This document shows, piece by piece, positions 1,165-16,018 of a stretch of DNA of 16,018 nucleotides. This stretch comes from an uncultured Methylotenera sp. (GTDB taxonomy: Bacteria; Pseudomonadota; Gammaproteobacteria; Burkholderiales; Methylophilaceae): NCBI GenBank assembly GCA_937957775.1, contig CALFXV010000215.1:1-16018 (forward strand), written 5' to 3'. A program made the translations under genes and the position numbers. Within the stretch, counting starts at the first letter, position 1, and the number at the start of each line of letters is the position of its first letter. Under the pieces are notes generated by a model, which saw only the letters and a list, made by a program, of their open reading frames with translations, was not told the DNA's origin and did no database searches.

Positions 1165-1196
1165 CGTTGGCTTAGTGAAACCCAATCGGAGGCCTT

Positions 1197-1589
1197 ATGC
1201 ACCACCCTGTAAAAACTGCTTATCAAACGCGTAAACAACAAGCTGGCATGACCTTGTTAGGCATGTTGTTGGTGTGTGCCTCATTGGTGATGGTGGCCTA
1301 CGTGGCCATGAAAGTGGTGCCAGCATACCAGCAGTTTTACACGGTTAAAATGGTCATGGCCGGCCTAAATAAAGAGCCGCTAGCCAGCATGAGTCAAAAA
1401 GAAATTAAAGACGCGTTTGAGCGCCGTGCCGATGTGGCTTACGTGACCGCGGTTAAAAGCAGCGATTTGATTATAGACAAAGACAGCGCCGGGGTGACCG
1501 TGGCCACGGCCAAATACCAAGTAGTGGAACCTTTGTTTGGCAACCTGAGTATTTTGCTGGATTTCTCCACGCAAGAGGCCGGCCTATAA
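1197..1589 (+). CDS. DUF4845 family small membrane protein
   Basis: A 130-residue protein of unknown function that fits the DUF4845 family, found between lepB and rnc in many beta- and gammaproteobacteria. A short basic N-terminus is followed by GMTLLGMLL at residues 17-25 and a single hydrophobic helix to about residue 44, then a small extracytoplasmic domain. The Gly-Met-Thr-Leu context resembles a type IV prepilin cleavage site, but the usual Glu at position 5 of a mature pilin is absent, so cleavage by PilD is only a possibility. A GGAGG Shine-Dalgarno (1188-1192) sits just before the ATG. Neighbours are the signal peptidase gene and rnc, which would suit an envelope role. I cannot assign a biochemical function. 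Confidence 0.85.
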   Translation: MHHPVKTAYQTRKQQAGMTLLGMLLVCASLVMVAYVAMKVVPAYQQFYTVKMVMAGLNKEPLASMSQKEIKDAFERRADVAYVTAVKSSDLIIDKDSAGVTVATAKYQVVEPLFGNLSILLDFSTQEAGL

Positions 1590-1616
1590 ATGGCCATGGC
1601 TAGGAATACATAAGCG

Positions 1617-2312
1617 ATGTCTGTGCAAGATTTAGCTAAACGCCTACCCTATAAATTCGTTAACCACGGTTTGTTGACACAAGCCTTAACGCACCGCAGT
1701 TTTAGCGCGCAGAATAACGAGCGCTTGGAGTACCTAGGCGACGGCGCCCTTAATTTCATTATTGCCAATCAGTTGTATCAGCGTTTTCCTGGCTTAGACG
1801 AAGGTGATTTAAGTCGTTTGCGTGCGCAGTTGGTGAAGGAAGCCAGTATCAGCGAATTGGCTTTGGCGCTGAATGTCGGTGATGCGCTTAAATTGGGCGA
1901 AGGCGAATTGAAAAGTGCCGGTTGGCGCAGGCCATCGATTTTGGCTGATGCACTGGAAGCCATCATAGGCGCGGTGTATTTAGACGGTGGCTTTGCCGCC
2001 GCTGAAGGCTTGGTGCTGCATTTGTACAACGATAAACTCAGCACCATAGACCCGAAAGTCATAGACAAAGATGCCAAATCCTTGCTGCAAGAGCGTTTGC
2101 AAGGACGCAAAGTGGCAGTACCGGAATACGCAGTGGTGCACACCGGTGGTGAAGCCCATGCCCAGGTCTTCATCGTTGAATGCTTTATACAAAAACTCGA
2201 CATACGCACCGTGGGCGAGGGCACCAGTCGTCGCATTGCTGAGCAACAAGCCGCACAATTGGCCTTGTTGGCTTTAGATAAACTGGGCTTTGGTAAAAGC
2301 TACAGCGCCTGA
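1617..2312 (+). CDS. rnc: Ribonuclease III
   Basis: A 231-residue RNase III, the double-stranded-RNA endonuclease that processes rRNA precursors and mRNAs in the cytoplasm. The catalytic domain carries the signature NERLEYLGDGALNF (residues 34-47), with Glu38 and Asp42 aligning to E. coli Glu41 and Asp45. Asp111 and Glu114 in ILADALEAIIGAVYLD align to the other metal ligands. A C-terminal double-stranded RNA-binding domain spans roughly residues 152-222, including GEAHAQVF and GTSRRIAEQQAAQLAL. The usual Ser of LGDSxL is Gly here, outside the metal ligands. AGGAAT at 1602-1607 is a plausible ribosome binding site for the chosen ATG. The length matches the family. The rnc-era-recO order is the classical proteobacterial operon. 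Confidence 0.98.
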   Translation: MSVQDLAKRLPYKFVNHGLLTQALTHRSFSAQNNERLEYLGDGALNFIIANQLYQRFPGLDEGDLSRLRAQLVKEASISELALALNVGDALKLGEGELKSAGWRRPSILADALEAIIGAVYLDGGFAAAEGLVLHLYNDKLSTIDPKVIDKDAKSLLQERLQGRKVAVPEYAVVHTGGEAHAQVFIVECFIQKLDIRTVGEGTSRRIAEQQAAQLALLALDKLGFGKSYSA

Positions 2313-2355
2313 TTACTGGCCTAATTTCTCGCCTATTTAAATTGGATAGCCTTAC

Positions 2356-3267
2356 ATGACAGACAACAATACGAATTTAACCGACTTGGCCGCTTTTAAA
2401 TGCGGCACGGTGGCCATAGTGGGCCGGCCCAACGTCGGTAAATCGACCTTGCTTAATCACATATTGGGCATGAAGTTGGCGATCACCTCACGTAAGGCGC
2501 AAACCACCCGTCATCGCCTATTAGGCATACACACCACCGACGACACGCAATTCTTATTTGTCGACACGCCGGGTTTCCAGCAAAAGCATTTAAATGCCCT
2601 GAACAAAGGCCTGAATAAAACCGTGACGCAGGTGTTAACCGAAGTCGACGTGGTGCTGTTTGTCATTGAGCCCATGAAGTTGGGCGAAGCCGATCGCAAG
2701 GTCTTGCAATTGTTGTCTGAAAAAACACCGACCATATTGGTGGTGAACAAAGCGGATTTAATGGGTGATAAAGGCAATTTATTGCCCTTAATTCAAGACT
2801 TTGATTTGGAATTTCCTTTCTCCGACATCGTGCCGGTCAGCGCTAAGAAAAGCCTGCATCTGGATGAGTTGCTGCAAACCATACGTAAATACCTGCCTAC
2901 CCAAGAAGCGATTTATTCCGAAGACGAACTGACCGACAAGAACGAACGCTTTTTGGCCGCCGAATTGGTGCGTGAAAAAATATTCCGTTTATTAGGCGAT
3001 GAGATACCTTATTCCGTGGCGGTGGAAATCGAGAAGTTTGAAGTGGTGGGCAATTTGCGCCGTATTTTTTGCGCCATCATCGTCGATAAAGACAGCCAAA
3101 AACCCATGCTGATTGGCAAAAATGGCGAGAAGATGAAGCAAATCTCTACCGAAGCCAGGCAAGACATGGAAAAACTGTTTGGTGGCAAAGTCTACTTGGA
3201 AACGTGGGTGAAAGTGAAAGGCGGTTGGGCGGACGACGAGCGCGCGCTCAAAAGCTTGGGTTACTAA
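2356..3267 (+). CDS. era: GTPase Era, 16S rRNA maturation factor
   Basis: A 303-residue Era GTPase, which binds the 3' end of 16S rRNA and helps 30S subunit assembly. The G motifs are all present: P-loop GRPNVGKS (23-30), the effector region with QTTRHRLLGI (49-58), DTPG (70-73), NKAD (131-134) and VSAK (161-164). The C-terminal KH RNA-binding domain occupies about residues 205-300, with the GxxG loop GKNG at 254-257 and the usual GGWADDERALKSLGY end. Length is the family norm. The ATG at 2356 lacks a strong Shine-Dalgarno, but the residues following it fit Era N-termini. It follows rnc and precedes recO. Confidence 0.98.
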   Translation: MTDNNTNLTDLAAFKCGTVAIVGRPNVGKSTLLNHILGMKLAITSRKAQTTRHRLLGIHTTDDTQFLFVDTPGFQQKHLNALNKGLNKTVTQVLTEVDVVLFVIEPMKLGEADRKVLQLLSEKTPTILVVNKADLMGDKGNLLPLIQDFDLEFPFSDIVPVSAKKSLHLDELLQTIRKYLPTQEAIYSEDELTDKNERFLAAELVREKIFRLLGDEIPYSVAVEIEKFEVVGNLRRIFCAIIVDKDSQKPMLIGKNGEKMKQISTEARQDMEKLFGGKVYLETWVKVKGGWADDERALKSLGY

Positions 3268-3296
3268 GCCATACTTCTCCGTCATCTAGAGCCAAC

Positions 3297-4025
3297 ATGC
3301 AGCCTAGTTTTCGATTCGATAATCAAGCAGTGTTCGTGCTGCACACCTATCCCTTTAAAGAAACCAGCCTAGTGGTGGAGTTGTTTAGCCACGATCACGG
3401 CCGTGTCGCCACCACTGCCAAAGGCGCGCGGCGCCCGCGTTCTGCTATGCGTGGCATGCTGCAATCCTTTCAACCCTTGATTGCCACATGGTCGGGCAAA
3501 GCCGAATTAAAAACCCTGCACAGCTTGGATTGGGCAGGTGGCTTGCTGTTATTAAAAGGCGAGGCCTTGATGTGCGGCTTTTATTTAAACGAGCTCTTGC
3601 TGCGCTTGTTGCCGCGCGAGGATGCGCACGAGGCCTTGTTTGTTTATTACAGTGCCACGCTAAAAACCTTGGCCACTGAAGTGGATTTGGCCGCGACCTT
3701 GCGCCGCTTTGAATTGAAACTCTTGCAAGAGTTGGGTTATGCCATCCCTCTGCAAGTCGACAGCAGTGGTACCCCGGTATTGGCTGAGCAAAGCTATCTA
3801 TACCAGGCGGAGCTTGGCGCCCAGCGCACGACTGGCCTGGGCAATATGGGTCAACATGGCGTACAATTGAGCGGTAAAACCATGCTGGACATGGCTGGTG
3901 ACGATTACAGTCAGGCGCAAACCCAGCAACAAAGTAAGCAATTGATGCGTTATTTATTGGCGCATTACCTAGGCGATCAGCCTTTGCACACACGCCAACT
4001 TTTGCTAGACATGCAGGGTCTATGA
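3297..4025 (+). CDS. recO: DNA repair protein RecO
   Basis: A 242-residue RecO, the mediator that with RecR loads RecA onto SSB-coated single-stranded DNA in the RecFOR pathway. The N-terminal OB-fold is visible as AVFVLHTYPFKETSLVVELFSHDHGRV and the following KGARRPRS (about residues 11-49). The helical C-terminal domain includes CGFYLNELLLRLLPRED and LRRFELKLLQELGY. I see no Cys4 zinc cluster, as is usual for Gram-negative RecO. The frame is open back to a possible start at 3204 inside era, but those extra 31 residues are low-complexity and unlike RecO. The ATG at 3297 gives the usual length and a conserved N-terminus. Third gene of the rnc-era-recO group. Confidence 0.95.
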   Translation: MQPSFRFDNQAVFVLHTYPFKETSLVVELFSHDHGRVATTAKGARRPRSAMRGMLQSFQPLIATWSGKAELKTLHSLDWAGGLLLLKGEALMCGFYLNELLLRLLPREDAHEALFVYYSATLKTLATEVDLAATLRRFELKLLQELGYAIPLQVDSSGTPVLAEQSYLYQAELGAQRTTGLGNMGQHGVQLSGKTMLDMAGDDYSQAQTQQQSKQLMRYLLAHYLGDQPLHTRQLLLDMQGL

Positions 4026-4067
4026 TGGCCCTATGCTGGTCTAGCCATATTATTTAGGACGACGAAC

Positions 4068-4802
4068 ATGATTAAATTAGGTGTGAATATCGATCACGTT
4101 GCCACCATACGCCAGGCACGCGGCACCAAATACCCTAGCGTGGTGCAGGCCGCTTTGCGCGCTGAGCAGTCTGGTGCCGACAGCATCACCCTGCATTTAC
4201 GCGAAGACCGCCGCCACATGCAAGATGCCGATGTGCATGCCTTGCGTGGCTTGCTGCAAACGCGCATGAATTTAGAGTGTGCGGTTACCGATGAAATGCT
4301 AGACATTGCCGTCACGGTAGCCCCGCAAGACGTCTGCTTGGTGCCGGAACGCCGTGAAGAACGCACCACCGAGGGTGGCTTGGACGTGCTGGGGCAGTTT
4401 GCCAAGGTGCAACACGCCGTGCAAAAACTGATGGCTGCCGGCATACGCGTGTCCTTGTTCATTGCGCCGGATGCAGCGCAAATTGAGGCGGCTAAAAAAA
4501 CCGGCGCTGCCGTGATTGAATTGCATACCGGCACCTTTGCCGATGCCGAAACACCGGCCGTGCAAGCACACGAGTTACAACGCATCAAAGCCGCCGTGCA
4601 GTTGGGCTTGAAGTTAGGCTTGGTGGTGAACGCCGGCCACGGTTTGCATTACCACAACGTGCATCACATTGTCTCCATTCCTGGAATAGACGAGCTCAAT
4701 ATCGGTCATGCCATCGTGGCACACGCCTTGTTTGTCGGTTGGGACAATGCCGTTCGTGAAATGAAAGCGCTGATGAAAGAATCGGCGCCAGCTAGAACAT
4801 GA
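4068..4802 (+). CDS. pdxJ: Pyridoxine 5'-phosphate synthase
   Basis: A 244-residue PdxJ, the TIM-barrel enzyme that condenses 1-deoxy-D-xylulose 5-phosphate with 3-amino-2-oxopropyl phosphate in the DXP-dependent vitamin B6 pathway. Strong family motifs are [17 protein letters not shown] (4-20), [10 protein letters not shown] (41-50), TRMNLE (65-70), [17 protein letters not shown] (91-107) and [12 protein letters not shown] (187-198). His43, Glu70 and His191 align with the E. coli catalytic residues His45, Glu72 and His193. A good AGGAC Shine-Dalgarno (4056-4060) precedes the ATG by seven bases. The gene ends in an ATGA overlap with acpS, the conserved pdxJ-acpS coupling of proteobacteria. 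Confidence 0.98.
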
Positions 4803-5176
4803 TATTTGGCATAGGCACCGACATCGTTGAAGTGGAGCGCATTGCTGCTTCCATTAGCCAATTCGGTGACGAATTTGCCAAGCGCATCTTGGCGACCAGC
4901 GAGATGGAGCGTTACTTGGCTTCAAACATTCAAGCGAGATTTTTGGCCAAACGCTTTGCTGCCAAAGAAGCGTTTTCCAAGGCGCTGGGTACGGGTTTGC
5001 GCGGCCCAGCCAGTTTTCAAAATATCGCCGTGGCCCACGATGAATTGGGTAAGCCTTTGTTGGTGTTAGCGCCTGAATTGCAGGCCTTTATGCAAAGCAA
5101 GCAAATACGGCATACCCACTTAACCATCAGCGACGAGCGTAACCTGGCTGCGGCCTTTGTTGTTCTGGAAACATGA
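4799..5176 (+). CDS. acpS: Holo-[acyl-carrier-protein] synthase
   Basis: A 125-residue AcpS-type phosphopantetheinyl transferase. It transfers 4'-phosphopantetheine from CoA to the serine of apo-ACP, activating fatty acid synthesis. The start [14 protein letters not shown] carries the metal ligand Asp8. [19 protein letters not shown] carries Glu57, the second ligand. The C-terminal [12 protein letters not shown] matches the family end. Length is normal for AcpS. The ATG overlaps the pdxJ stop (ATGA, 4799-4802), and its own stop overlaps the tcdA start in the same way (5173-5176), so three consecutive genes are translationally coupled. Confidence 0.97.
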
Positions 5177-5991
5177 CGCCCAGTCAGCCTGACACTCAAA
5201 ACGAAGACATGGCGCGGCGCTTTGGCGGCGTGGCGCGACTGTATGGTGAAGCCGGTTTAGCGCAGTTGCAAGCGGCGCACGTTTGCGTGATAGGCTTAGG
5301 CGGCGTGGGCTCTTGGGCGGCGGAAGCGCTGGCGCGCAATGCTATCGGCCGCCTCACCTTGATCGATTTAGACAACCTGGCGCTATCCAATGTGAATCGC
5401 CAATTGCCTGCCTTGGACGGCAGTTTTGGTAAAGCCAAAATCAGCGCCATGGCCGAGCGCATGCGCTTGATTAATCCGCAGTTGCGCATCAGCGAAATAG
5501 AAGATTTTATTACCCCAGATAATTTAAGCCAATTACTGCCCAGCGATTTGGACGGCGTGTTGGATTGCATCGATGACGCCAAAGCCAAGGCAGCCTTGGC
5601 CGCTTATTGCCTAAGTCAAGGTATACCCTTGGTGGTAACCGGAGCCGCCGGTGGGCGTTTGGATGCCACGCGCATTAAAACAGCCGATTTAAGCGTGGTC
5701 AGCCACGATAAATTGTTGGCTAAAGTGCGCAACCTATTAAGGCGCGACTACGGTTTTACCAAAGCCAGCACCGGTCAAGCCAAGCCAAAAAAAATGTCGG
5801 TGTTGTGCGTCTATTCCGATGAGAGCGTGATTGAGCCGGATGCGGTTTGCGCTGTTGTTGAACCTCGCACTGAAGGTCGTGCCGGCGTGACTGGTTTAAA
5901 CTGCGCCGGTTACGGTTCCAGTGTTTGCGTCACCGCGCCATTTGGCTTTATTGCAGCCGGTCTAATCATCAAAGCCTTGCTCGCTCCTTAG
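5173..5991 (+). CDS. tcdA: tRNA threonylcarbamoyladenosine dehydratase (TcdA/CsdL)
   Basis: A 272-residue E1-like enzyme of the ThiF/MoeB/HesA superfamily. TcdA uses ATP to convert t6A37 in tRNA to the cyclic form ct6A. The nucleotide-binding glycine loop is VIGLGGVGSWAAEALAR (39-55), followed by LIDLDNLALSNVNRQ (63-77) with the adenylation Arg/Gln pair, LDCIDDAKAKAALAAYC (130-146) and TGAAGGRLD (156-164). The C-terminal VTGLNCAGYGSSVCVTAPFGF segment is typical of TcdA rather than ThiF or MoeB, and no Cys4 zinc site is seen. The ATGA overlap with acpS favours the start at 5173; Met13 (MARRFGGV) is a possible alternative. It ends just before the Pho-like promoter of ppk and is probably the last gene of the upstream transcription unit. 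Confidence 0.93.
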   Translation: MTPSQPDTQNEDMARRFGGVARLYGEAGLAQLQAAHVCVIGLGGVGSWAAEALARNAIGRLTLIDLDNLALSNVNRQLPALDGSFGKAKISAMAERMRLINPQLRISEIEDFITPDNLSQLLPSDLDGVLDCIDDAKAKAALAAYCLSQGIPLVVTGAAGGRLDATRIKTADLSVVSHDKLLAKVRNLLRRDYGFTKASTGQAKPKKMSVLCVYSDESVIEPDAVCAVVEPRTEGRAGVTGLNCAGYGSSVCVTAPFGFIAAGLIIKALLAP

Positions 5992-5998
5992 TTAATTT

Positions 5999-6038
5999 TT
6001 GTCATTAAACGGTCATCAATTTGTCACAATTGATGCCT
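5999..6038 (+). promoter_or_regulatory. Tandem Pho-box-like array upstream of ppk1
   Basis: Between the tcdA stop and ppk1 there are three direct 7-base half-sites, TTGTCAT (5999-6005), CGGTCAT (6010-6016) and TTGTCAC (6021-6027), with AT-rich 4-base spacers TAAA and CAAT. A weak fourth unit GATGCCT falls at 6032-6038 after AATT. The exact 11-base period and the GTCA core match the PhoB binding-site architecture (7-bp repeats, 4-bp AT spacers), so this reads as two adjacent 18-bp Pho boxes. The second ends 11 bases before a -10-like TATATT. The inference is phosphate-starvation activation of ppk by PhoB. No phoB gene is in the window. Confidence 0.8.
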
Positions 6039-6049
6039 ACCATCGGTGC

Positions 6050-6055
6050 TATATT
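6050..6055 (+). promoter_or_regulatory. Likely -10 element of the ppk1 promoter
   Basis: TATATT lies 11 bases downstream of the last Pho-like unit, the placement seen at PhoB-activated sigma-70 promoters where the Pho box replaces a -35 element. Predicted transcription would start near 6062, only about 9 bases before the ATG at 6071, so the leader would be very short. The AAAGA at 6056-6060 is the only Shine-Dalgarno-like run and would lie at or upstream of that start. Confidence 0.55.
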
Positions 6056-6070
6056 AAAGACGAAAATCTT

Positions 6071-8137
6071 ATGAGCCCCGCATACCCTCCCTTGAAGCTA
6101 TTAAACCGAGATGCCAGCATATTGGCATTCAATCAACGCGTGCTAAGTCTCGCGCAAAATGTGGATTACCCCCTATTAGAACGCTTGCGCTTCTTGTGCA
6201 TAGTGTCGTCAAACTTAGATGAATTCTTTGAGGTGAGGGTGGCACCGCACGTTGATGCCATGCGTGCTAACGAGCAGCACGGTGATATTACTGTGCACAG
6301 TTTTCAAACCATCTCCAATGCAGCACATGCATTAGTCGAACAGCAGTACCAAATTTTTAATAACGAACTTATGCCCGCTCTGGCTGATCAGGGCGTGCAT
6401 TTGGTCTCGCATTGCGATCGCACCGCCGAACAACGACGCTGGGTCTCCCGTTATTTCGAATCCTCAGTCAGGCCGCTATTGGTGCCGGTGGCCTTAGACC
6501 CATCGCACCCGTTCCCCTTGGTGGCGAATAAGGCTTTGAATTTTATTGTGTTGTTAGGCGGCGACGATGCCTTTGGTCGCAGCAATAACATTGCCATAGT
6601 TAAAGTGCCCAGGGTCTTGCCGCGCTTAATTAAATTACCTAAAACCCTGAGTGATAAACAACAAAAATTCGTTTCATTATCCAGCGTGATACGCGCCCAT
6701 TTGCCAAGTTTGTTTACGGGCAGAGACGTGCTGAATTTCTCACAATTTAGGGTGACCCGCCATTCCGATTTGGCCGTCGACGAGGACGATGTTAAAAACC
6801 TCCGCACTGCGCTGCGTAAAGGCCTGGCCCACCGTAATTTTGGTGAGGCCGTGAGGTTGGAGGTGTCGCACGGTTGCGACGAAAAGCTGGCTAAATTGTT
6901 ATTGCAACAATTCGATTTGCCTAAAGAATCCATGTACCGCGTCAATGGCCTGGTTAATCTAGCTAGGCTGATGCAATTAGCCGATTTGGCCGAAGGCAAT
7001 CATCTAAAATTCAAACCATTCGAACCGGCGCTAAGCCATCAATTGCAGGGCAATCAGTCGTTCTTTACGCGTCTTAAGCAAGGCGACGTGCTCATCCATC
7101 AGCCTTATGAAAGTTTTGAGTCGGTGATTGATTTCTTGCGTGAAGCCGTCAACGATCCGAATGTATTGTCCATACAGCAAACCATTTACCGCACCGGCTC
7201 CGACCCGCGCATGCTCAAGCTTTTGCAAGAGGCGGTACGGCGTGGCAAAGAAGTCATGGCCGTGGTCGAGCTTAAAGCGCGATTTGACGAAGAAGCCAAC
7301 ATTAACTGGGCAGAAGATCTGGAGTCAGTAGGAGCGCAAGTGGTTTACGGCGTGGTCGGCTTAAAAACCCATGCCAAAATGCTCTTGGTGATGCGCCGTG
7401 AAGGCGAGGGGCTGAAATACTACGGCCACGTGTCCACTGGCAACTACAACCCCAGAACCGCTCGTTTGTATACCGACGTCAGTATGTTGACGGCAGACCC
7501 GCTGATCACACGCGATATGGAACATTTGTTTAGGCACATTGCCAGCCAAATTAAATTGCCACGCTTAAAAAAATTATTGGTGGCGCCGTTTAATTTGCAT
7601 AGGCAAATGCTGGCCAAAATTAAAAGTGCCGAAACCGCGGCCAAGGCCGGCAAGCCCACCCGCATTATATTGAAAATGAATGCCTTGACCGACGAGGCCT
7701 TGGTTTTGGCCTTGGTAAAAGCCGGTCGGGCTGGCGTGGAAGTGGATTTGATTCTGCGCGGTGCCTGCATCCTGCCCGTTGATGCAGCTGGCTTGAATGG
7801 ACGCATCCGGGTTCGCTCCATCATAGGTCGATTGCTAGAGCATTCCAGGGTGTTTTATTTCAATATTGATGGCGTGGAAAACATGTGGTTAGCCAGTGCC
7901 GATTGGATGAACCGCAACATGATGCGCCGCATAGAAATCGCTTGGCCAATTGATAACGCGGCAAACCGTGCGCGCATCTTGCGCGAGTGTTGCCAAATGA
8001 GTTTGGATGACAATCAAGATGCCTGGGTACTGACGGCGGATGGCAGCTACCTGTTAGCCGGCGCTAAGACGAAAGGCGTCACGGCAGCGCCAGCCTTCAG
8101 TGTGCAACAACACCTTATCCAGCAATACACAGGCTAA
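6071..8137 (+). CDS. ppk1: Polyphosphate kinase 1
   Basis: A 688-residue PPK1, which reversibly polymerises the gamma-phosphate of ATP into inorganic polyphosphate. The N-terminal domain opens with LLNRDASILAFNQRVL and RLRFLCIVSSNLDEFFEVRV. Two phospholipase-D-like C-terminal domains hold the active site: His434 in GLKTHAKM (the autophosphorylated His, E. coli His435), His453 in GHVSTGNYNPRTARLYTD, and His591 in LLEHSRVFYF. The total length equals that of the E. coli enzyme. The frame extends upstream to a TTG at 5999, but that would place the start inside the Pho array, and the extra 24 residues do not resemble PPK; ATG 6071 is preferred. sixA follows after 11 bases. Confidence 0.97.
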   Translation: MSPAYPPLKLLNRDASILAFNQRVLSLAQNVDYPLLERLRFLCIVSSNLDEFFEVRVAPHVDAMRANEQHGDITVHSFQTISNAAHALVEQQYQIFNNELMPALADQGVHLVSHCDRTAEQRRWVSRYFESSVRPLLVPVALDPSHPFPLVANKALNFIVLLGGDDAFGRSNNIAIVKVPRVLPRLIKLPKTLSDKQQKFVSLSSVIRAHLPSLFTGRDVLNFSQFRVTRHSDLAVDEDDVKNLRTALRKGLAHRNFGEAVRLEVSHGCDEKLAKLLLQQFDLPKESMYRVNGLVNLARLMQLADLAEGNHLKFKPFEPALSHQLQGNQSFFTRLKQGDVLIHQPYESFESVIDFLREAVNDPNVLSIQQTIYRTGSDPRMLKLLQEAVRRGKEVMAVVELKARFDEEANINWAEDLESVGAQVVYGVVGLKTHAKMLLVMRREGEGLKYYGHVSTGNYNPRTARLYTDVSMLTADPLITRDMEHLFRHIASQIKLPRLKKLLVAPFNLHRQMLAKIKSAETAAKAGKPTRIILKMNALTDEALVLALVKAGRAGVEVDLILRGACILPVDAAGLNGRIRVRSIIGRLLEHSRVFYFNIDGVENMWLASADWMNRNMMRRIEIAWPIDNAANRARILRECCQMSLDDNQDAWVLTADGSYLLAGAKTKGVTAAPAFSVQQHLIQQYTG

Positions 8138-8148
8138 TAGCTGACAGC

Positions 8149-8643
8149 ATGGCTAATTTAATTCTGTGGCGGCATGCAGACGCTGAAGACGACAGCGTCA
8201 CCGGTTTGGATGCCGATAGGGCACTTTCCAAGCAAGGTCGCAAGGATGCGCGTCGCATGGCGGATTGGTTAGACCAGTTCCTGCCGCAAAACACCACCAT
8301 ACTGTCTAGTCCTGCTAAGCGTTGCCTAGAAACGCTAGCCGCACTGCCGCCACTCAACCCCAACAAAACCAAGCGGCAAGTGCAGGTTGTGGATTACCTG
8401 TCGATTGATAACACGGTGGCGGACATGTTGCCGCATCTGCTCAATGACAACCATCAACAAACGATATTGGTAGTGGGCCATCAGCCCAATCTAGGCTTAT
8501 TAATCAGCCATTTATTGGCCATGCCTAATGCCTGTGTGGTAAAGAAAGGGGCAATTTGGTGGTTACGCCAGCGGCCTATTAGCAATGAAAATGGGCCGGC
8601 CGTGCAAACCTATTTGTTTGCCGTGCAACAGCCCACTTATTAA
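8149..8643 (+). CDS. sixA: Phosphohistidine phosphatase SixA
   Basis: A 164-residue SixA of the histidine phosphatase (phosphoglycerate-mutase-like) superfamily. SixA removes phosphate from phosphohistidine in signalling proteins such as His-containing phosphotransfer domains; NPr of the nitrogen PTS is a reported substrate. The catalytic motif is LWRHADAE with His9; the usual RHG is RHA here. Further motifs are LSKQGRKDARRMADWL, ILSSPAKRCLET and VVGHQPNL with His111. It starts 11 bases after the ppk1 stop and is probably co-transcribed with it; a ppk-sixA-ppx neighbourhood is familiar in betaproteobacteria. It is convergent with the histone-like gene, with only 18 bases between the stops and no clear bidirectional terminator. 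Confidence 0.93.
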   Translation: MANLILWRHADAEDDSVTGLDADRALSKQGRKDARRMADWLDQFLPQNTTILSSPAKRCLETLAALPPLNPNKTKRQVQVVDYLSIDNTVADMLPHLLNDNHQQTILVVGHQPNLGLLISHLLAMPNACVVKKGAIWWLRQRPISNENGPAVQTYLFAVQQPTY

Positions 8644-8661
8644 GTCTTGCTTTAAACCGGT

Positions 8662-9126
8662 TTATTTTTTGTTAGGACGACCGGTTTTAATGGTCGGCAC
8701 TTTGGCCATGGCGGTTTTTAATGCGGCATCGGTCATGGCGGCCAATTGCATGATGCCGGCGCGTAATAACTCACTCTTTTTAACTGGTTGACCCAATTTA
8801 ACCAAGCGGTCTTTTAATACTGCAAACTGCGCGTATTCGGTTTTTGGCATGGTGAAGCTGTCGCGCTCCATTTTCAATTTTGGCGCTTTAGGGGTTTTCA
8901 CTACCGGTGTTTTTGCAGCGGCTACTTTTTTCACGGCGACCGGTTTAGAAACTGCTGATTTAGAGAGCGCGGCTTTGGCTGCGACGGGTTTTTTGCTAGC
9001 CGTTGCGCTGCTGGTTGCTTTAACGGCAGCAGCCTTAGGGGCTGCGGATTTTTTAGCTGGCGCAGTGGTGCTAGGTTTAGCTGCTGCGCTTGGCGTAGCA
9101 ACGGGTTTTGGCGTATTCTTTGACAT
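8662..9126 (-). CDS. Histone H1-like Lys/Ala/Pro-rich protein with conserved C-terminal domain
   Basis: A 154-residue basic protein. Residues 1-85 are a low-complexity tail of Ala, Lys, Pro, Ser and Thr with repeated KP, AAK and KSA units, like eukaryotic H1 tails and bacterial AlgP- or HctB-type proteins. Residues 86-154 form a compact, less repetitive domain starting MERDSFTMPKTEY, with KKSELLRAGIMQLAAM and ending KTGRPNKK. From memory, a similar C-terminal domain recurs in proteobacterial histone-like proteins; I cannot name a Pfam entry. Nucleic-acid or polyanion binding is inferred from charge. An AGGA Shine-Dalgarno (9134-9137) lies 7 bases before the ATG and abuts a perfect inverted repeat. 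The gene sits between sixA and ppx, downstream of ppx on the same strand, so a link to polyphosphate metabolism or nucleoid organisation is plausible but unproven. Confidence 0.8.
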   Translation of the reverse strand: MSKNTPKPVATPSAAAKPSTTAPAKKSAAPKAAAVKATSSATASKKPVAAKAALSKSAVSKPVAVKKVAAAKTPVVKTPKAPKLKMERDSFTMPKTEYAQFAVLKDRLVKLGQPVKKSELLRAGIMQLAAMTDAALKTAMAKVPTIKTGRPNKK

Positions 9127-9136
9127 AATGAAATCC

Positions 9137-9173
9137 TAATTAAACGGTATAAATAGTTTATACCGTTTAATTA
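9137..9173. repeat. Perfect 17-bp inverted repeat with 3-base centre, upstream of the histone-like gene
   Basis: The left arm TAATTAAACGGTATAAA (9137-9153), centre TAG (9154-9156) and right arm TTTATACCGTTTAATTA (9157-9173) pair without mismatch. It lies in the 80-base gap between the ppx stop and the start of the histone-like gene, on their coding (minus) strand. Read on the minus strand, a TATAAA -10-like hexamer sits at 9162-9157, and the Shine-Dalgarno AGGA begins at the last stem base (9137). It could be an operator over a promoter for the histone-like gene, or an mRNA hairpin just upstream of the ribosome site. No T-run follows on the minus strand, so it is not a canonical intrinsic terminator. 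Confidence 0.85.
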
Positions 9174-9206
9174 AGCTAGCAAGTTAAATTTTTATGACAA
9201 AGCTTG

Positions 9207-10160
9207 TTAACTTAGATTTAGCGCAAACGCCCAGTTGGTCTTTTGCCAAGCTAGGGTTTCTTCGTCTAATAGGTAATAGGACTGCGGGTATTTTTCTGCC
9301 CAGCTAGCAGATAAGCTCAATGTGATGCTGTTGTGTTGCGCGCTCAGTTGCAAACCGCGCAAATTGGGCATTTGTCTGGCGTGGCATAAAATGACAGCCA
9401 AGCGCAAACAAGCCAACTGCATGACAAATATCCTATCCGAGAAATCGGCTTCCAGGCGTTTGAGTTTGCCTCGGTAACCCAAGACCAATAAGCTTAAGCG
9501 GTGCAATTCGTTTTGAGAAAAGCCTGCCGGTTCAGCGTGATCCAATATGTAGGCGCCGTGTAAATGCGCGTCTATTGGCGACACCATGCAGCCCATTTCG
9601 TGTAGCAGGCTAGCCCATTGCAGTTTACGTGCATGGGCGGCTTGCTCGCCTGCAGCAAATTGGGTGTCGGCACTAATCTTTTCAAATAATTTTTCTGCCA
9701 CCAGTGCGACGGTTTTGGCGTGCGATTCGTCCACGGCAAACTTATGCATCAGGTGCAAGACGGAGGCATTTCTCATGTCTAGCATGGTGGTGTCTTGGGC
9801 TAACATATCGTACATCAAGCCATGCCTGAGCGCGCCTTTGGCGACGTTCATGGTTTCTATGTTTAAAAAGTCAAACACCCCTAGCATGATGGATAAGCCA
9901 CCGGCAATCACCGCTTTGCGTTCTTCTTTTAAACCGAGCAAACGCAATTTATCGGTGTGTTTGGCGCGCAGTAATTCCTCGCGCAACCACAACAGGCCTT
10001 CCTTGCTGATGGTGTCAGCGGGCCTGCCGTATTGTTCCAGCACATCGGCAATCGCACCCACCGTGCCGGATGCGCCGTAAGCGACGTCCCAGTGTTTTTG
10101 GTGGTAGTTAACGCCCAGCGTATCAAAGATGGATTCGGCGGCAATCTCGGCGCGGGTGAA
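9207..10160 (-). CDS. ppx: Exopolyphosphatase (Ppx/GppA family), C-terminal part, N-terminus lost at contig junction
   Basis: About 317 residues of the Ppx/GppA phosphatase family, which hydrolyses the terminal phosphate of polyphosphate. The visible part begins near FTRAEIAAESIFDTLG. It contains the nucleotide-fold motif AYGASGTVGAIADVLEQYG, then EERKAVIAGGLSIMLGVFDFL and GALRHGLMYDML. The HD-like C-terminal region includes LLHEMGCMVSPIDAHLHGAYILDH. Roughly the first 200 residues expected from E. coli PPX are missing, including the N-terminal ASKHA lobe and the catalytic Glu region. Instead the frame runs straight into an aldehyde dehydrogenase N-terminus at about 10,160-10,166. The fragment cannot be an active phosphatase as drawn. 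Its position beside ppk1 and sixA is natural, so the intact gene very likely exists in the source genome. Confidence 0.9.
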   Translation of the reverse strand, partial: FTRAEIAAESIFDTLGVNYHQKHWDVAYGASGTVGAIADVLEQYGRPADTISKEGLLWLREELLRAKHTDKLRLLGLKEERKAVIAGGLSIMLGVFDFLNIETMNVAKGALRHGLMYDMLAQDTTMLDMRNASVLHLMHKFAVDESHAKTVALVAEKLFEKISADTQFAAGEQAAHARKLQWASLLHEMGCMVSPIDAHLHGAYILDHAEPAGFSQNELHRLSLLVLGYRGKLKRLEADFSDRIFVMQLACLRLAVILCHARQMPNLRGLQLSAQHNSITLSLSASWAEKYPQSYYLLDEETLAWQKTNWAFALNLS

Positions 10161-10185
10161 GGCATTTTCGCTGTATTCGCCCTTG
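10155..10185. other. Junction between betaproteobacterial and actinobacterial sequence
   Basis: Minus-strand codons for LKGEYSEN (10,187-10,164) are the last that fit IolA/MmsA, and those for FTRAEIAAES (from 10,160) are the first that fit Ppx. The few bases between (AAT GCC) may be shared by both parents. The frame is preserved, producing one 447-codon reading frame spanning 9207-10550. Gene content and codon habits differ on the two sides: TTG/TTA leucines on the left, CTC/CTG on the right. No insertion sequence, integrase, tRNA or target duplication is visible, which favours an assembly join over recombination. Confidence 0.85.
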
Positions 10186-10550
10186 AGCATCTGGTTCATG
10201 CCACAGGCAAACTCAACAACTTCCTGACCACGAGTGATCTCACCGAGAGCATCGGAGAGAACCTTTCCGTGCTCGGAGGTGATGATCTCTGCGAGTTCAC
10301 CCTTGCGAGCATTGAGTAGTTCGCGGAAGTTGAAGATGATCTGCTGACGCTTAGCGAGTGAGGTGTCGCGCCATGCGGGGAAAGCAGCCTGAGCTGACTC
10401 AATAGCAGCTGTAATTTCTGCCTGGTTTGCCAGTGCTACCTCTTTGGTGATTTCACCAAGCGCAGGGTCATATACAGGGGCGGTGCGACCGGAGGTGCTG
10501 ACAACTTCAGCACCGTTAATCCAGTGGCCAACTACGGGAAGAGTAGACAT
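10161..10550 (-). CDS. iolA: CoA-acylating (methyl)malonate-semialdehyde dehydrogenase, N-terminal part, truncated at contig junction
   Basis: The first ~130 residues of an MmsA/IolA aldehyde dehydrogenase, which converts malonate semialdehyde (inositol pathway) or methylmalonate semialdehyde to acetyl- or propionyl-CoA. Motifs are HWINGAEV, TAPVYDPALGEITKEVALA, FPAWRDTSLAKRQQIIFNFRELL, EIITSEHGKVLSDALGEITRGQEVVEFACG and LKGEYSEN. The expected continuation (IxPFNFPxMVP, NAD-binding and the catalytic Cys) is absent because Ppx sequence replaces it in frame. The start ATG has an AAGAAG-type ribosome site just upstream (minus strand, near 10,556-10,562). It lies 33 bases after the aldolase gene and is the third gene of an iol operon. 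mmsA is an equally valid symbol. Confidence 0.88.
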
Positions 10551-10583
10551 TGATCTTCTTTCGTGAGGGGTGATCTTAAGAAC

Positions 10584-11465
10584 TTATGAACCGTGAACCA
10601 GTGCGGCTGCGGTGTCGATGGCGGAGGCTACGTCTCCGTCGGCGGGGTAGAGCAGGCTACGTCCAACAACCAATCCACGTACTCCGGGAAGTGCGAGGGC
10701 CGCTGCCCATGAAGCGAATGTTTCTTCAGCATCGCCGTTCGGGTCTCCTCCGAGGAGAAGTGTTGGAAGTGTTGTCGAAGCCATCACGCGTTCCATTTCT
10801 GGAACCACGGGAAGCTTGAGCCAGGAGTATGCACTGGAGTTACCCAGACCTGACGCAATAGCAATCGACAGGATGACCGCATCGGGTGAGAGGTCATTCA
10901 CAATCTTGCCATCTACCCACTCGCTCATAAAGGGTTCGAGCATGATGGGAAGCTCTGCGTCCGTAGCCTCAGACACTGCTAAGGCAGTTGCTTCGAGAGT
11001 GTCGACAGAACCTGCATCTTCGAGGTTGATGCGAACCAAGTTTTTAGCGAAGTCCAAACCTGATTCGACGATGCCATCCACGTCATAAGCGGTGTATCGA
11101 TCGTCCATCTCGAAAGAGGCGCCCTTGAGGCCACCACGGTTCATGGAACCGACCACAATCTTGTCATCCAGAAGACCGAGCAGGGCAAGATCTTCAATGA
11201 TGTCGGGGGTGCCGAGGACTCCGTCAACACCGGGGCGAGACAAAGCAAGTGCCAAACGCTCAAGTAGAACATTGCGGTCTGCCATGGCAGTTTCGTTCTT
11301 GCCTACCCCGAGTGCACCACGTGCAGGGTGGTCAGCAGCGACAATGAAGAGCTTTCCGTCTCCACGAAGGAGTTCGCGGCGCTTTCGATTGGCGAGAACT
11401 TCGGCAATCTTTCCGGGGTTTTCCGCGCGGGTCTTGCGCAGGGCGTCTAAATCGATGGTGCTCAT
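10584..11465 (-). CDS. Cgl0158/DeoC-LacD-type class I aldolase of the inositol pathway
   Basis: A 293-residue (beta/alpha)8-barrel aldolase of the DeoC/LacD superfamily, similar to the Cgl0158-type proteins in actinobacterial inositol clusters. By position it probably acts as IolJ, cleaving 2-deoxy-5-keto-D-gluconate 6-phosphate to malonate semialdehyde and dihydroxyacetone phosphate; this is inferred from context. Visible motifs are LFIVAADHPARG (39-50), VDGVLGTPDIIEDL (80-93), GLKGASFEMDDRYTAYD (112-128), LPIMLEPFM (172-180) and YSWLKLPVV (213-221). Lys217 is a candidate Schiff-base lysine. The frame is open upstream to 11,525, but the ATG at 11,465 overlaps the iolC stop as ATGA and gives a sensible N-terminus. 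The iolA/mmsA gene follows after 33 bases. Confidence 0.85.
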   Translation of the reverse strand: MSTIDLDALRKTRAENPGKIAEVLANRKRRELLRGDGKLFIVAADHPARGALGVGKNETAMADRNVLLERLALALSRPGVDGVLGTPDIIEDLALLGLLDDKIVVGSMNRGGLKGASFEMDDRYTAYDVDGIVESGLDFAKNLVRINLEDAGSVDTLEATALAVSEATDAELPIMLEPFMSEWVDGKIVNDLSPDAVILSIAIASGLGNSSAYSWLKLPVVPEMERVMASTTLPTLLLGGDPNGDAEETFASWAAALALPGVRGLVVGRSLLYPADGDVASAIDTAAALVHGS

Positions 11466-12424
11466 GCGCCAATCTCCTTCAGAATTGCTTCCACCTCTGC
11501 CGTCGTTGGCATGGCGGTTGAACATTCGCGGCGGCTTGCCACCACAGCACCTGCCACGTTGGCAAAGCGCAAGATCTTCTCAAGACCCCAGCCCTGAAGT
11601 AGGCCATAGCAGAGAGCTCCACCGAAGCTGTCGCCAGCCCCTAGACCGTTAATGACATCAACAAAATATGGTGGGACCTCGACGGTCTCGTCCTTGGTCT
11701 TAGCCAGAACACCCTTAGGGCCCTGCTTCACAATGGCAAGTTCAATACCGCGCTCCAGCAGAGCATCTGCCGCACGATGTGGTTCAGTCTCCCCCACTGC
11801 AACCTCGCACTCTTCCTTGTTGCCGACGGCAACAGTGACGTTTTCGAGTGCTTTAGCCACCTGAACAGAGGCGTTCTCGGGGTTCTTCCAAAACATGGGA
11901 CGGTAGTCCAAGTCAAGGATGGTCAACGGCTTGCGACCGCGTGCTTCCCATGCCGCAAAGTGCGCGGTGCGGCTGGGCTCTTCAGAAAGACCGGTCACGG
12001 TGGACCAATAAATCTTCGCATTGGAGATTGCGTCCAGGTCTAGTTCGTTGGCCTTGATGACCAGGTCTGGAGCAATGGGGTCGCGGTAGAAGTAGAGGGG
12101 GAAGTCATCTGGTGGGAAAATTTCGCAGAACACAACAGGGGTGTTCAGTCCTTCAACGCCGGAAACGAATTCATCGCTGACACCTAGACGCTTGAGTTCT
12201 TCGTGAACATACTTGCCAAAGGAGTCGTTACCGGTGCGTGTGATGACCGCTGACTTGAGTCCGTGACGCGCAGCAGCGACAGCAACGTTTGTTGCAGAAC
12301 CACCCAGGTACTTGCCAAAGGTTTCAACCTTCTCTAGGCCAACACCGTCCTGCAAAGGGTAGATGTCAATGCCAACGCGACCGATGGTAATGACATCGAA
12401 TGGGGTTTTGGATGCGGCGGTCAT
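11462..12424 (-). CDS. iolC: 5-dehydro-2-deoxygluconokinase (PfkB family)
   Basis: A 320-residue PfkB-family sugar kinase that phosphorylates 5-dehydro-2-deoxygluconate at O6 in myo-inositol breakdown. The N-terminal DVITIGRVGIDIYP and KYLGGSATNVAVAAARHG (38-55) are typical of IolC. ITRTGNDSFG and CEIFPPDDFPLYFYRDPIAPD follow. The C-terminal PfkB signature is VINGLGAGDSFGGAL (257-271), with Asp265 as catalytic base. It is the first gene of the minus-strand operon iolC, aldolase, iolA, with an ATGA overlap to the aldolase. No strong Shine-Dalgarno precedes the ATG. The upstream 143-base divergent region with rmuC contains an imperfect palindrome that may be the operator for an inositol regulator. 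Other PfkB kinases are possible from sequence alone, but context supports IolC. Confidence 0.9.
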   Translation of the reverse strand: MTAASKTPFDVITIGRVGIDIYPLQDGVGLEKVETFGKYLGGSATNVAVAAARHGLKSAVITRTGNDSFGKYVHEELKRLGVSDEFVSGVEGLNTPVVFCEIFPPDDFPLYFYRDPIAPDLVIKANELDLDAISNAKIYWSTVTGLSEEPSRTAHFAAWEARGRKPLTILDLDYRPMFWKNPENASVQVAKALENVTVAVGNKEECEVAVGETEPHRAADALLERGIELAIVKQGPKGVLAKTKDETVEVPPYFVDVINGLGAGDSFGGALCYGLLQGWGLEKILRFANVAGAVVASRRECSTAMPTTAEVEAILKEIGA

Positions 12425-12567
12425 ACTGCGGTGTACAACTTTCTTAAGAGGGATGAAACAAATCTAATAGCTCTAACGTACATATGTTAGGACATATTGA
12501 CAAGTCTGACATTACGGGGACTTAAACGCGAGCGCAACACCGAAATGTCCCCGGCTCCTGAGACACT
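12425..12567. promoter_or_regulatory. Divergent iolC-rmuC intergenic region with candidate operator
   Basis: The 143-base gap must hold promoters for both directions. An imperfect 18-base palindrome occupies 12,473-12,490 (arms CTAAC and GTTAG, 7 of 9 positions symmetric), and ACATAT is repeated at 12,480-12,485 and 12,492-12,497. On the minus strand, TTGTCA at about 12,504-12,499 could be an iolC -35 with the palindrome just downstream, a typical repressor position. On the plus strand, TTGACA at 12,497-12,502 is a perfect -35 toward rmuC, but the -10 about 17 bases later is poor (ACTTAA). Assignments are tentative. Confidence 0.5.
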
Positions 12568-13806
12568 GTGAAGATGGAGTCTTCACTGTTTCTCATCCTC
12601 GGCTTGATTGCCGGAATTGTTGCTGGAATTGCTATTGGTTGGGGCCTGCGTTCGCGTAAATCCCTGCCCAGTAATGCGGGTGATCTCGCTGTGCGAGTAG
12701 CCACTGCGGAAGAGCGCGCCAAGGGTAAAGACGAGCAAATCCAGACTCTTGAGCGGATGCTCTCGGAGCTGCGCGAAGTAAGCGAGCGTAAGCAAGAAGA
12801 CGAGGCAGCCCGTGCGCGCGAAGAGCACAAAGTGCTCGAAGCGCTAGCTCCGGTGAAGGAAACCCTGCAAGCGATGCAGACCAAGGTCAACGACCTCGAG
12901 AACCAGCGACAGGAACAATACGGTCAGATTGCCCAGCAATTAACTCAATCTCGTCAGTTTGGTGAAGAACTGCGCGCCACCACTCAGTCCCTCGCCTCTG
13001 CACTGAGCTCCAACAGCGTTCGTGGCACCTGGGGAGAGGCTCAACTGCGCCGTTTGGTTGAAGTTGCTGGTCTGACCGCCCACGTCGACTTTGATACTCA
13101 AACCACCATGAAGACAGATGGTGGAACCATCCGCCCCGATATGGTGATCAACTTGCCCGGCGGAAAGACCATCGTCATCGATGCCAAGGTGCCCTTCAAC
13201 TCGTATCTTGAAGCCAGCCAGATTCCCATCACCGCAACCGGTGAAGAGGCAGCTCGTCGCAAGACTCTGATGGATGCTCACGTCAAAGCAGTGCGCTCTC
13301 ACGTAGACGCCCTGAGCTCTAAGAGTTATTGGAGTGGCTTCGACTTCAGCCCTGAGTTTGTGCTGGCGTTCATCCCCAGTGAATCTCTTCTTGCTTCTGC
13401 GCTTGAGGCAGACCCCACTCTGCTGGATTACGCTTTCGGCAAGCGCGTAGCACTGGCTTCCCCCGTGAACCTGTGGGCAGTACTCAAGACCGTCTCCTAC
13501 ACCTGGCAGCAGCAGGTCGTCACCGATGAAGCAAAGAAGCTCTTCGACTTGGGCATTGAGCTCTACTCACGCCTCAGCACGATGACCAAGCACACCGAGG
13601 ACCTCCGCAAGGCCATTGAGAACACGGTGAAGCACTACAACGGCTTTATTTCTTCATTGGAAACCCGCGTACTCTCGACTGCTCGCAAGTTCCCTGGCAT
13701 CGACCCAACCAAAATCCTTCCCGAGGGAATTGAAGTTCACGATGCGCCGAAGCCCCTCACCGCTGGTGAACTCGTAGACCCCGATGACAAGAGCTTGTCC
13801 AGCTAA
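12568..13806 (+). CDS. rmuC: DNA recombination protein RmuC homologue
   Basis: A 412-residue RmuC family protein, a predicted membrane-anchored nuclease-like protein; E. coli RmuC limits recombination at short inverted repeats. A single N-terminal helix (about 6-27) is followed by a charged coiled coil (about 40-145) rich in Glu, Gln, Arg and Lys. The RmuC domain starts at RGTWGEAQLRRLVEVAGL (152-169). RPDMVINLPGGKTIVIDAKVPF (189-210) contains the D...DAK pattern of a PD-(D/E)xK fold, with Asp191, Asp205 and Lys207 as candidate catalytic residues. LSSKSYW and SPEFVLAFIPSE match the family further on. The start may be GTG 12,568 or ATG 12,574; neither has a convincing Shine-Dalgarno. The MFS gene begins 15 bases after the stop. 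Confidence 0.93.
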   Translation: MKMESSLFLILGLIAGIVAGIAIGWGLRSRKSLPSNAGDLAVRVATAEERAKGKDEQIQTLERMLSELREVSERKQEDEAARAREEHKVLEALAPVKETLQAMQTKVNDLENQRQEQYGQIAQQLTQSRQFGEELRATTQSLASALSSNSVRGTWGEAQLRRLVEVAGLTAHVDFDTQTTMKTDGGTIRPDMVINLPGGKTIVIDAKVPFNSYLEASQIPITATGEEAARRKTLMDAHVKAVRSHVDALSSKSYWSGFDFSPEFVLAFIPSESLLASALEADPTLLDYAFGKRVALASPVNLWAVLKTVSYTWQQQVVTDEAKKLFDLGIELYSRLSTMTKHTEDLRKAIENTVKHYNGFISSLETRVLSTARKFPGIDPTKILPEGIEVHDAPKPLTAGELVDPDDKSLSS

Positions 13807-13821
13807 TGACATGATGGGAAC

Positions 13822-15057
13822 GTGAGTTCCCCATCGGCTAACGCGCCTCGTGCCTTATTGGCAGGGCGCGTTTTAGCGTTTGCTGGAATTGCTCTTGTTG
13901 CCTTCAGCATGCGTGCTGCTGTGGCAGGACTCTCTCCCCTGATTCCCATCATCAGCCAGACTTATGAACTCAACACAGCAGCGATTGCGCTACTGGGGGC
14001 CATTGCGCCACTGAGCTTTGCCACCGGCGGCGTGCTGACTCCACGCATAGAAAAGCGCATCGGTCTGGAACGAACGCTGATCGTGGCTTTGCTGCTGATG
14101 ATTGTTGGACATGTCATCCGAGCTGCCTCGGTGAACTGGCAAACCCTCGCCATTGGAACACTTTCCGCTTTGCTCGGAATGGGCTTTGCCAACGTGGCTA
14201 TGCCACCAGTCGTCCGCAAATACTTCCCCGACCGCGTCAGCATGATGACTGCGGTCTATATGTCCATCATGTCGATCAGCGCCTTCTTGCCCGCACTGGT
14301 TGCCGTACCGGTGGCAGATGCCATTGGCTGGCGCGGATCGCTATTGCAATGGGCCGTCATTGCGACCATTGCGCTGATTCCCTGGATCTTGGAATACCGC
14401 TCTCATCGCAAAGACACGACGTTCGATGCTCCCGAAGAAGCACCCTTGGTGCGAGCTATTCACCCCTGGCGCTCCCCCACAGCCTGGTCAGTAGGACTCG
14501 TTCTCGCCGTATCTTCGATTACCGGCTATGCCATGTATGCATGGATGCCGGTGATCCTCATTGATATTGCTGGTGTAACACCGGCACAAGCAGGTGCACT
14601 TCTGGCGCTCTTTGCAGGTATTGGTCTTCCGTTGGCTTTCGTTACCCCGGGTCTGGCCAAACGCATGGGTAAGCATGTGCATTGGTTAGTGACCTTGGGA
14701 AGCGCATTCTTCGTTGTGGGATATCTAGGCCTGTTGCTGTCACCGACCTATGGAACCTGGGTATGGGTTGCCATTGTGGGCACAGGCTGCTTAGAGTTCC
14801 CTCTCGCGCTGACGCTGGTCAACCTTCGAACCGGGAGTGTGCGCAGCTCGATGGCACTTAGTGGCTTTGCCCAGATTGTTGCCTACCTCAGTGCAGCAAT
14901 GGCACCGCCACTGATGGGGGTTCTCTACAGCTCAACCAACAGCTGGACTGTGGTACTCACAACCCTGCTGGTTGTGTCGGTCACGCTCAATGTGCCGGCA
15001 GCATTGATTCTGCGTCGCAACCGCATGGTTGACGCAGAGATCGCTGCAAAGTTTTAG
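13822..15057 (+). CDS. MFS transporter, CynX/NimT-like
   Basis: A 411-residue major facilitator superfamily permease with about 12 predicted hydrophobic segments. The N-terminal MRAAVAGLSPLIPIISQTYELNTAAIALLGAI arrangement resembles the CynX/NimT (cyanate or 2-nitroimidazole exporter-like) subgroup. The central loop (about residues 192-215, charged, with SHRKDTTF) separates two six-helix halves. Substrate cannot be read from the sequence. The start is a GTG at 13,822 with a weak GGGAA just upstream, 15 bases after rmuC, so co-transcription with rmuC is likely. Its TAG stop overlaps the end of the convergent glpX gene by four bases, leaving no room for a separate terminator. Confidence 0.88.
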   Translation: MSSPSANAPRALLAGRVLAFAGIALVAFSMRAAVAGLSPLIPIISQTYELNTAAIALLGAIAPLSFATGGVLTPRIEKRIGLERTLIVALLLMIVGHVIRAASVNWQTLAIGTLSALLGMGFANVAMPPVVRKYFPDRVSMMTAVYMSIMSISAFLPALVAVPVADAIGWRGSLLQWAVIATIALIPWILEYRSHRKDTTFDAPEEAPLVRAIHPWRSPTAWSVGLVLAVSSITGYAMYAWMPVILIDIAGVTPAQAGALLALFAGIGLPLAFVTPGLAKRMGKHVHWLVTLGSAFFVVGYLGLLLSPTYGTWVWVAIVGTGCLEFPLALTLVNLRTGSVRSSMALSGFAQIVAYLSAAMAPPLMGVLYSSTNSWTVVLTTLLVVSVTLNVPAALILRRNRMVDAEIAAKF

Positions 15058-16018
15058 GACTCGAGCCAGCGGTCAGCGCGGTAGTCGGCCTGAACGCGGC
15101 GGATGGTGCCGGAGCGACCGCGCAAAATGATGCTGTCGGTGCGGATGATCGGCCCCTTGCGACGAACACCCTCCACCAGACCACCATCGGTCACACCAGT
15201 GGCGACAAAGAAGGTGTTGTCACTGGTGACGAGCGAGTCCTGGTCATAGACATGGTCAAACTTGAGGCCTGCGTCGAGACCCTTCTGCTTTTCCTCATCA
15301 TCTTTGGGAGCCAAAATGGTCTGGATCATTCCGCCGAGTGCCTTCATGGCACAGGCGGTGACCACACCTTCAGGGCTGCCGCCGATTCCCACACACATGT
15401 CGATACGTGACTCATAGCGGGCAGCATTAATGCCACCAGCGACGTCACCGTCGAGAAGAAGTCGAGTTCCCGCACCTGCGTCGCGGATCTCTTGGATCAG
15501 CTCCTGGTGGCGGGGACGGTCAAGAATAGCCACGCGGATATCTCCCACGTTGCGGCCAGTTGCCTTAGCGAGCGCACGAATGTTCTCACCAATCGGCTTG
15601 CGAATGTCGACGACTCCGATGCCTTCTGGGCCGGTGGCGATCTTGTTCATATAGAAAACAGAAGAAGCATCCAACATGGTGCCACGGTCAGAAACTGCAA
15701 TAACAGAAACCGCATTCTGGCGGCCTGCAGCCGTCAGGCTGGTGCCGTCGATGGGGTCTACGGCAATGTCGCAGGCAGGGCCACGGCCATTGCCGACGTG
15801 CTCGCCGTTGAAGAGCATGGGAGCTTCGTCCTTCTCACCTTCACCGATAACGATGACGCCATCAAAGTTCACAGTGGCGAGAAAAGCGCGCATGGCGTCG
15901 ACGGCAGCCTTGTCAGCTGCGTTCTTGTCGCCGTGACCAATGAAAGGAACTGCACGAATAGCTGCAGCTTCGGTGGCACGCACCAGCTCCATACCAAGGT
16001 TGCGATCGGGGTGAAGGT
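15054..16018 (-). CDS. glpX: Class II fructose-1,6-bisphosphatase GlpX, N-terminus outside window
   Basis: GlpX hydrolyses fructose 1,6-bisphosphate to fructose 6-phosphate in gluconeogenesis. The frame is open to the window edge and reads LHPDRNLGMELVRATEAAA at the start. PDRNL before MELVR is a normal GlpX N-terminus, so the Met at 15,992 is internal and the true start lies just beyond the window. Motifs are FIGHGDKNAADKAAVDAMR, VIGEGEKDEAPML, DIAVDPIDGTSLTA (metal and phosphate binding), LLLDGDVAGGI and GIGGSPEGVVTACAMKALGG. The C-terminus ends at a TAA overlapping the MFS stop tail to tail. Class II enzymes of this type are the usual FBPase of actinobacteria, where glpX commonly sits near other central metabolism genes. 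Confidence 0.96.
   Translation of the reverse strand, partial: LHPDRNLGMELVRATEAAAIRAVPFIGHGDKNAADKAAVDAMRAFLATVNFDGVIVIGEGEKDEAPMLFNGEHVGNGRGPACDIAVDPIDGTSLTAAGRQNAVSVIAVSDRGTMLDASSVFYMNKIATGPEGIGVVDIRKPIGENIRALAKATGRNVGDIRVAILDRPRHQELIQEIRDAGAGTRLLLDGDVAGGINAARYESRIDMCVGIGGSPEGVVTACAMKALGGMIQTILAPKDDEEKQKGLDAGLKFDHVYDQDSLVTSDNTFFVATGVTDGGLVEGVRRKGPIIRTDSIILRGRSGTIRRVQADYRADRWLES

Follow-up and report, generated by a model that had tools for sequence, protein, structure and literature searches.

The window, the whole stretch of 16,018 nucleotides analysed here and assigned to an uncultured Methylotenera species, is a chimeric contig with a probability that we place at about 97%, and the apparent fusion of IolA and Ppx encoded in it is not a real feature. 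A chimeric join of two genomes had been proposed in a preliminary description of the window, and the proposal is borne out by two collinear lineages, a single place at which they meet, and unfused full-length copies of both genes in relatives. Segments from a Methylotenera and from an Aurantimicrobium-like member of the Microbacteriaceae would have been joined inside the unrelated genes ppx and iolA. Separate, non-overlapping parts of the contig are each collinear with other species, as expected of an interspecies chimera.

The fused open reading frame is positioned at 9207-10550 on the minus strand and encodes 447 amino acids from an ATG start in one open frame. The Pfam family Aldedh matches residues 19-129 with a score of 83.1 bits, which is above the cut-off of 23 but covers only positions 4-114 of the 461 in the profile. 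Ppx-GppA (PF02541) matches residues 126-251 and Ppx-GppA_III (PF21447) residues 260-429; both are above their cut-offs, PF02541 through its last 127 positions only (157-283 of 285). The NCBIfam scores are far under the curated cut-offs because both halves are fragments: the MMSDH family TIGR01722 reaches 129.2 bits against 448.5 over profile positions 1-139 of 477, the exopolyphosphatase PRK10854 167.6 against 864, and TIGR03706 78.1 against 307. The first ~165-176 profile positions of the latter two families have no match in the frame. Among the PDB matches listed, alignments of Ppx/GppA chains begin no earlier than residue 122, whereas those of MMSDH chains end at residues 127-135, and in one case at 147. 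The preliminary description had divided the frame into IolA from residue 1 to ~129 followed by Ppx; this division stands, with Ppx entering at ~178 of its 501 residues, but the point breakpoint has to be replaced by an interval, 10,160-10,181.

The iolA piece (10160-10550, minus strand) contains the 5' 129-130 codons of the gene, and the remaining ~368 codons are missing from the window. The best match, protein P0122, has the same residue as the frame at 129 of 129 positions (100% amino acid identity) and then continues as IolA (ASTGVDVYSTRQP...), which supports the chimeric reading. It is followed by three proteins of Aurantimicrobium sp. with 95% identity, including P0125, which is full-length with 498 residues. 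The closest named IolA is thus that of Aurantimicrobium, and the DNA is collinear with that of Microbacteriaceae, in agreement with the earlier assignment of the dehydrogenase half to actinobacteria. Residues 1-129 form an ordinary N-terminus of IolA/MMSDH (TIGR01722); however, about three quarters of the enzyme are gone from the frame. In native P0125, the motif PFNFP starts at residue 151 and GERC at 281, both past the join; we take the two to be functional motifs. The C-terminal end of P0122, which is 271 residues long, reads WNHLR where P0125 and P0148 have LVADS. P0122, which is encoded on a 4-kb contig, may itself be the product of a broken frame or of a further join.

The ppx piece (9207-10181, minus strand) represents the 3' two thirds of a Methylotenera gene and corresponds to residues ~178-501 of native P0003. 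The best matches are P0002 (337 residues, 95% amino acid identity) and P0003 (501 residues, 94%), so that the nearest intact Ppx, at 94-95% identity, belongs to another strain, a point against the chimeric reading. Among the best 120 of 7,922 matches, the organisms named are mostly Methylotenera; one record carries the label Bacteroidia bacterium and another the label mine drainage metagenome. Protein matches and collinear DNA both point to Methylotenera, as expected from the claim that this half is betaproteobacterial. Residues ~124-447 of the frame are an ordinary C-terminal part of a Methylotenera Ppx/GppA protein (PF02541, PF21447), from which the frame differs in lacking the N-terminal ~177 residues, which are missing from the window altogether. 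In P0003, the sequences IDLGSNSFRL, GVEEARL, and IDIGGRSTE, presumably functional motifs, start at residues 13, 115, and 140, all ahead of the join at 178. Comparison with the native proteins shows that neither half is complete, as had been stated previously: IolA is without its GERC and PFNFP regions and Ppx without its N-terminal lobe.

Two features were observed next to the ppx piece. A short stretch at 9135-9173, in the gap that separates the stop codon of ppx from the next open reading frame, matches many Methylotenera genomes on both strands, which fits an inverted repeat, perhaps a terminator. The gap between sixA and ppx contains a lysine- and alanine-rich open reading frame of 154 residues (8662-9126, minus strand), for which searches of Pfam and NCBIfam gave no match and which occupies the same place in the Methylotenera stretches L057, L061, and L062.

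The junction interval (10160-10181, minus strand) encodes the peptide GEYSENA, residues 124-130 of the frame, which is common to both native proteins. These residues can be assigned to either parent, and the breakpoint may lie anywhere in the interval. The peptide starts at residue 124 in P0122 and P0125, and at 178 in P0003. It is the longest word that P0003 has in common with P0122 or P0125, and the only one of seven residues shared with P0122. When P0003 was shuffled 5,000 times and compared with P0125, a common word of at least seven residues occurred in 2 of the shuffled sequences and one of at least six in 50. P0148 has only GEYSEN in common. On the Ppx side the word varies, being GEYTEN in P0002, GDYTEN in P0004 and P0005, and GDYSEN in P0006. 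Because GEYSENA is common to both proteins in the same phase, the reading frame continues through the join; a join placed where ppx and iolA both encode it in one frame would let the open frame survive and resemble a two-domain protein.

The open frame is what might suggest a functional two-domain IolA-Ppx protein of new domain architecture. However, IolA is missing the region of its cysteine motif and Ppx its N-terminal part, the architecture is found in none of the best 120 of 7,922 relatives, and the in-phase GEYSENA accounts for the frame being kept. Such a protein is improbable in the extreme, and the fused frame should be left without a functional annotation. The acquisition of a gene with a function was also considered and rejected.

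At the nucleotide level, the junction was read from an alignment without the misregistered row L041_ppx. From 10,181 downward in coordinate, the Ppx relative L001 has one difference from the window, at 10,164, before 10,131. The iolA relatives L049 and L010 are identical to the window over 10,202-10,180, with a mismatch at 10,179; L047-L049 use the codons GGT for the glycine and TCC for the serine, against GGC and AGC in the window. The exact DNA shared at the join is 2 nt when measured through these relatives and would be at most 22 nt if the codons of the true iolA parent were those of the window. Methylotenera loci (L057, L061-L063) and Microbacteriaceae loci (L058-L060) share two 15-mers in a comparison of about 72 kb with 51 kb, and no 17-mer, native ppx and iolA included. 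Since no 17-mer is common to the relatives, they cannot serve as proof of a k-mer join. By arithmetic, about one shared 21-mer is expected between two random genomes of 1.5 Mb, which is a plausibility argument for such a join only. A k-mer join at 10,160-10,181 would be the likely step.

The two parts of the window differ in the genomes with which they are collinear. The Methylotenera block (328-10181, plus strand) contains the 3' end of lepA, lepB, rnc, era, recO, pdxJ, acpS, tcdA, ppk, sixA, the lysine- and alanine-rich open reading frame, and the ppx piece. The Microbacteriaceae block (10160-16018, minus strand) contains the iolA piece, a Cgl0159-like gene, iolC, rmuC, a CynX-type MFS gene, and glpX. 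The genes ppk, sixA, and those of the right-hand part were named through family searches (Pfam, NCBIfam); the remaining left-hand names, from lepB to tcdA, are our presumed identifications from the sequences, for which the gene order was checked.

From ~302 to ~10,185, the window is collinear with Methylotenera genomes at 78-89% nucleotide identity. The stretch L057, from a metagenome-assembled genome of Methylotenera oryzisoli, aligns in one piece over 2-9947 at 88%, much more weakly in the first 300 nt, and its alignment stops at 9947, where the contig of L057 ends. L061 and L062 align in pieces of 78-83% identity that start at 10 or 2 and end at 10,185 (L061) or 10,184 (L062). L063 covers 8811-10,189 at 89%, and BLAST alignments to L001 also end at 10,189. 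On the other side, L058, L059, and L060, from genomes in the family of Alpinimonas (G006), align in one piece each from 10,155 or 10,156 to 16,018, with identities of 86, 86, and 80% and alignment lengths of 5866-5878 nt when the whole window is aligned. Their IolA proteins are 98-99% identical to Aurantimicrobium P0125. The gene order of the window is kept in the relatives on either side (L061 and L062 on the left, L058-L060 on the right). This confirms the claim that each half lies among the genes typical of its lineage, with ppk and sixA on the left and iolC and the aldolase gene on the right. The two parts match different phyla and both sets of matches end at one short stretch, which argues for a chimera.

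Intact genes in the relatives lead to the same reading, because they are not fused. Full-length ppx is present in three of the four Methylotenera stretches (L061, L062, L063), the fourth, L057, being cut by the end of its contig, and full-length iolA lies beside the Cgl0159-like gene and iolC in all three Microbacteriaceae stretches. A change of codon habits at the join had been described, and composition does change there: the sign of tetranucleotide log-odds in 500-nt bins flips between the bins 9501-10,000 and 10,001-10,500. All 20 bins over 1-10,000 are Methylotenera-like and all 12 over 10,001-16,000 are Microbacteriaceae-like, in a test with some circularity, the homologous stretches having also supplied the reference sets.

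The fusion was also sought elsewhere. No protein with both halves is present among the best 120 of 7,922 relatives, whose coverage of the query never exceeds 78%. A scan of genome_contigs with six peptide patterns, in which 84,980 species were represented by a single genome each, gave 16 loci, none of which carries both halves. Six of them belong to the Ppx side, of which five have a Methylotenera title and one the title "uncultured proteobacterium". The other ten match the IolA side: seven (L007-L012 and L014) are titled Microbacteriaceae, Micrococcales, Alpinimonas, or Gulosibacter, one is titled Spongiactinospora, and two have alphaproteobacterial titles and identities of 50 and 27%. The alignments of Ppx-side and IolA-side loci overlap by some residues around 111-147. 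The same six patterns had no match in viral_contigs. The homologues of IolA-Ppx architecture that would speak for a real rearrangement are thus absent from the best 120 of 7,922 proteins, the 16 loci, and viral_contigs.

The query 8650-10,550 has matches in 48 of the 52 genomes that make up the genus of G001, titled Methylotenera, and none of the listed ppx alignments runs past query position 1550 (window 10,199). Genome G026 has a short separate piece on another contig, matching query positions 1528-1605 at 76%, mostly on the far side of the join. The iolC family TIGR04382 was found in none of the 52 genomes at E <= 1e-40, a search in which 8 of 14 control genomes matched, 3 of these over the cut-off; this absence is a further reason for the chimeric reading. 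The query 10,150-12,450, whose start precludes a leftward view, has matches in 305 of the 398 genomes from the family of G006, with a best identity of 89%.

These results also bear on illegitimate recombination between phyla at a microhomology of 2-22 nt, which would have brought 5.9 kb or more of foreign DNA into a Methylotenera (or Microbacteriaceae) cell and left a non-functional ppx/iolA fusion. The short coding stretch in common at the join would suit such an event, as would the window having no N to mark a scaffold gap. However, both ppx and iolA would be broken, the native gene order is kept on either side, iolC (TIGR04382) is not found in the 52 genomes, and no second occurrence appears in the protein, locus, and viral_contigs searches. 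Scans of nine proteins near the join with Pfam and NCBIfam revealed no mobile-element gene, and the same contig contains another probable switch, in lepA. Recombination is therefore very unlikely.

The probable switch in lepA is of the same kind as that in ppx and iolA and adds to the case for a chimera. A lepA fragment at 1-327 (plus strand) probably belongs to another genome of the same order, and sequence comparison suggests that it is joined to the 3' end of Methylotenera lepA at about 302-327, which would make the contig a likely mosaic of three genomes. Before position 301, the identity to L057 is 57-83% in ten 30-nt bins, against 87-100% in the ten bins that follow, whereas L057 and L062 are 80-100% identical across the same stretch of lepA. 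The 26 nt at 302-327 are exactly those of L057. At the protein level, this part of lepA is 91-94% identical to L064-L068 and 75% to L057, L061, and L062. In the order of G001, 370 of 399 genomes match the fragment, the best at 82% nucleotide identity and G001 at 74%. A protein search (best 120 listed), which reaches only short, mostly partial proteins with few organism names, gave P0242 as the best match (95%); the named proteins include those of Polynucleobacter victoriensis (89%) and Rubrivivax (82%). The identity of L064-L068 to the window is 77-97% over 1-90 and 67-90% over 91-300, and the piece 1-300 may itself be patchy. Bases 1-300 could alternatively be a diverged native lepA; the simplest reading is that they do not fit Methylotenera and reflect mixing in the assembly of the contig.

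The most likely origin of the join between ppx and iolA is a passage from one genome into the other at a short shared sequence, made either by the assembler or through template switching in the PCR of the library preparation; such an event would be technical and not biological. Stretches in common between two species have been described as "chimeric nodes" of de Bruijn graphs, and chimeric contigs have been reported from several assemblers (PMC8171044). In simulated metagenome assemblies, chimericity rises with the complexity of the community (PMC3285633). The window resembles such short-read metagenome chimeras in that two genomes form one contig; the switch lies at a stretch common to both at the protein level, and at the DNA level this may be so. 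However, that source refers to evolutionarily similar species (PMC8171044), whereas the genomes in the window belong to different phyla and have only a short word in common, by chance, in genes that are unrelated.

A chimera joined in frame can pass for a new domain architecture or seem to connect the metabolism of polyphosphate with that of inositol. There is a simple reason for in-frame joins, since a shared word is a shared peptide when it is in the same phase. The apparent IolA-Ppx fusion says nothing new about biology and is of value as a caution only: surveys of domain fusions in metagenome proteins should demand independent homologues.
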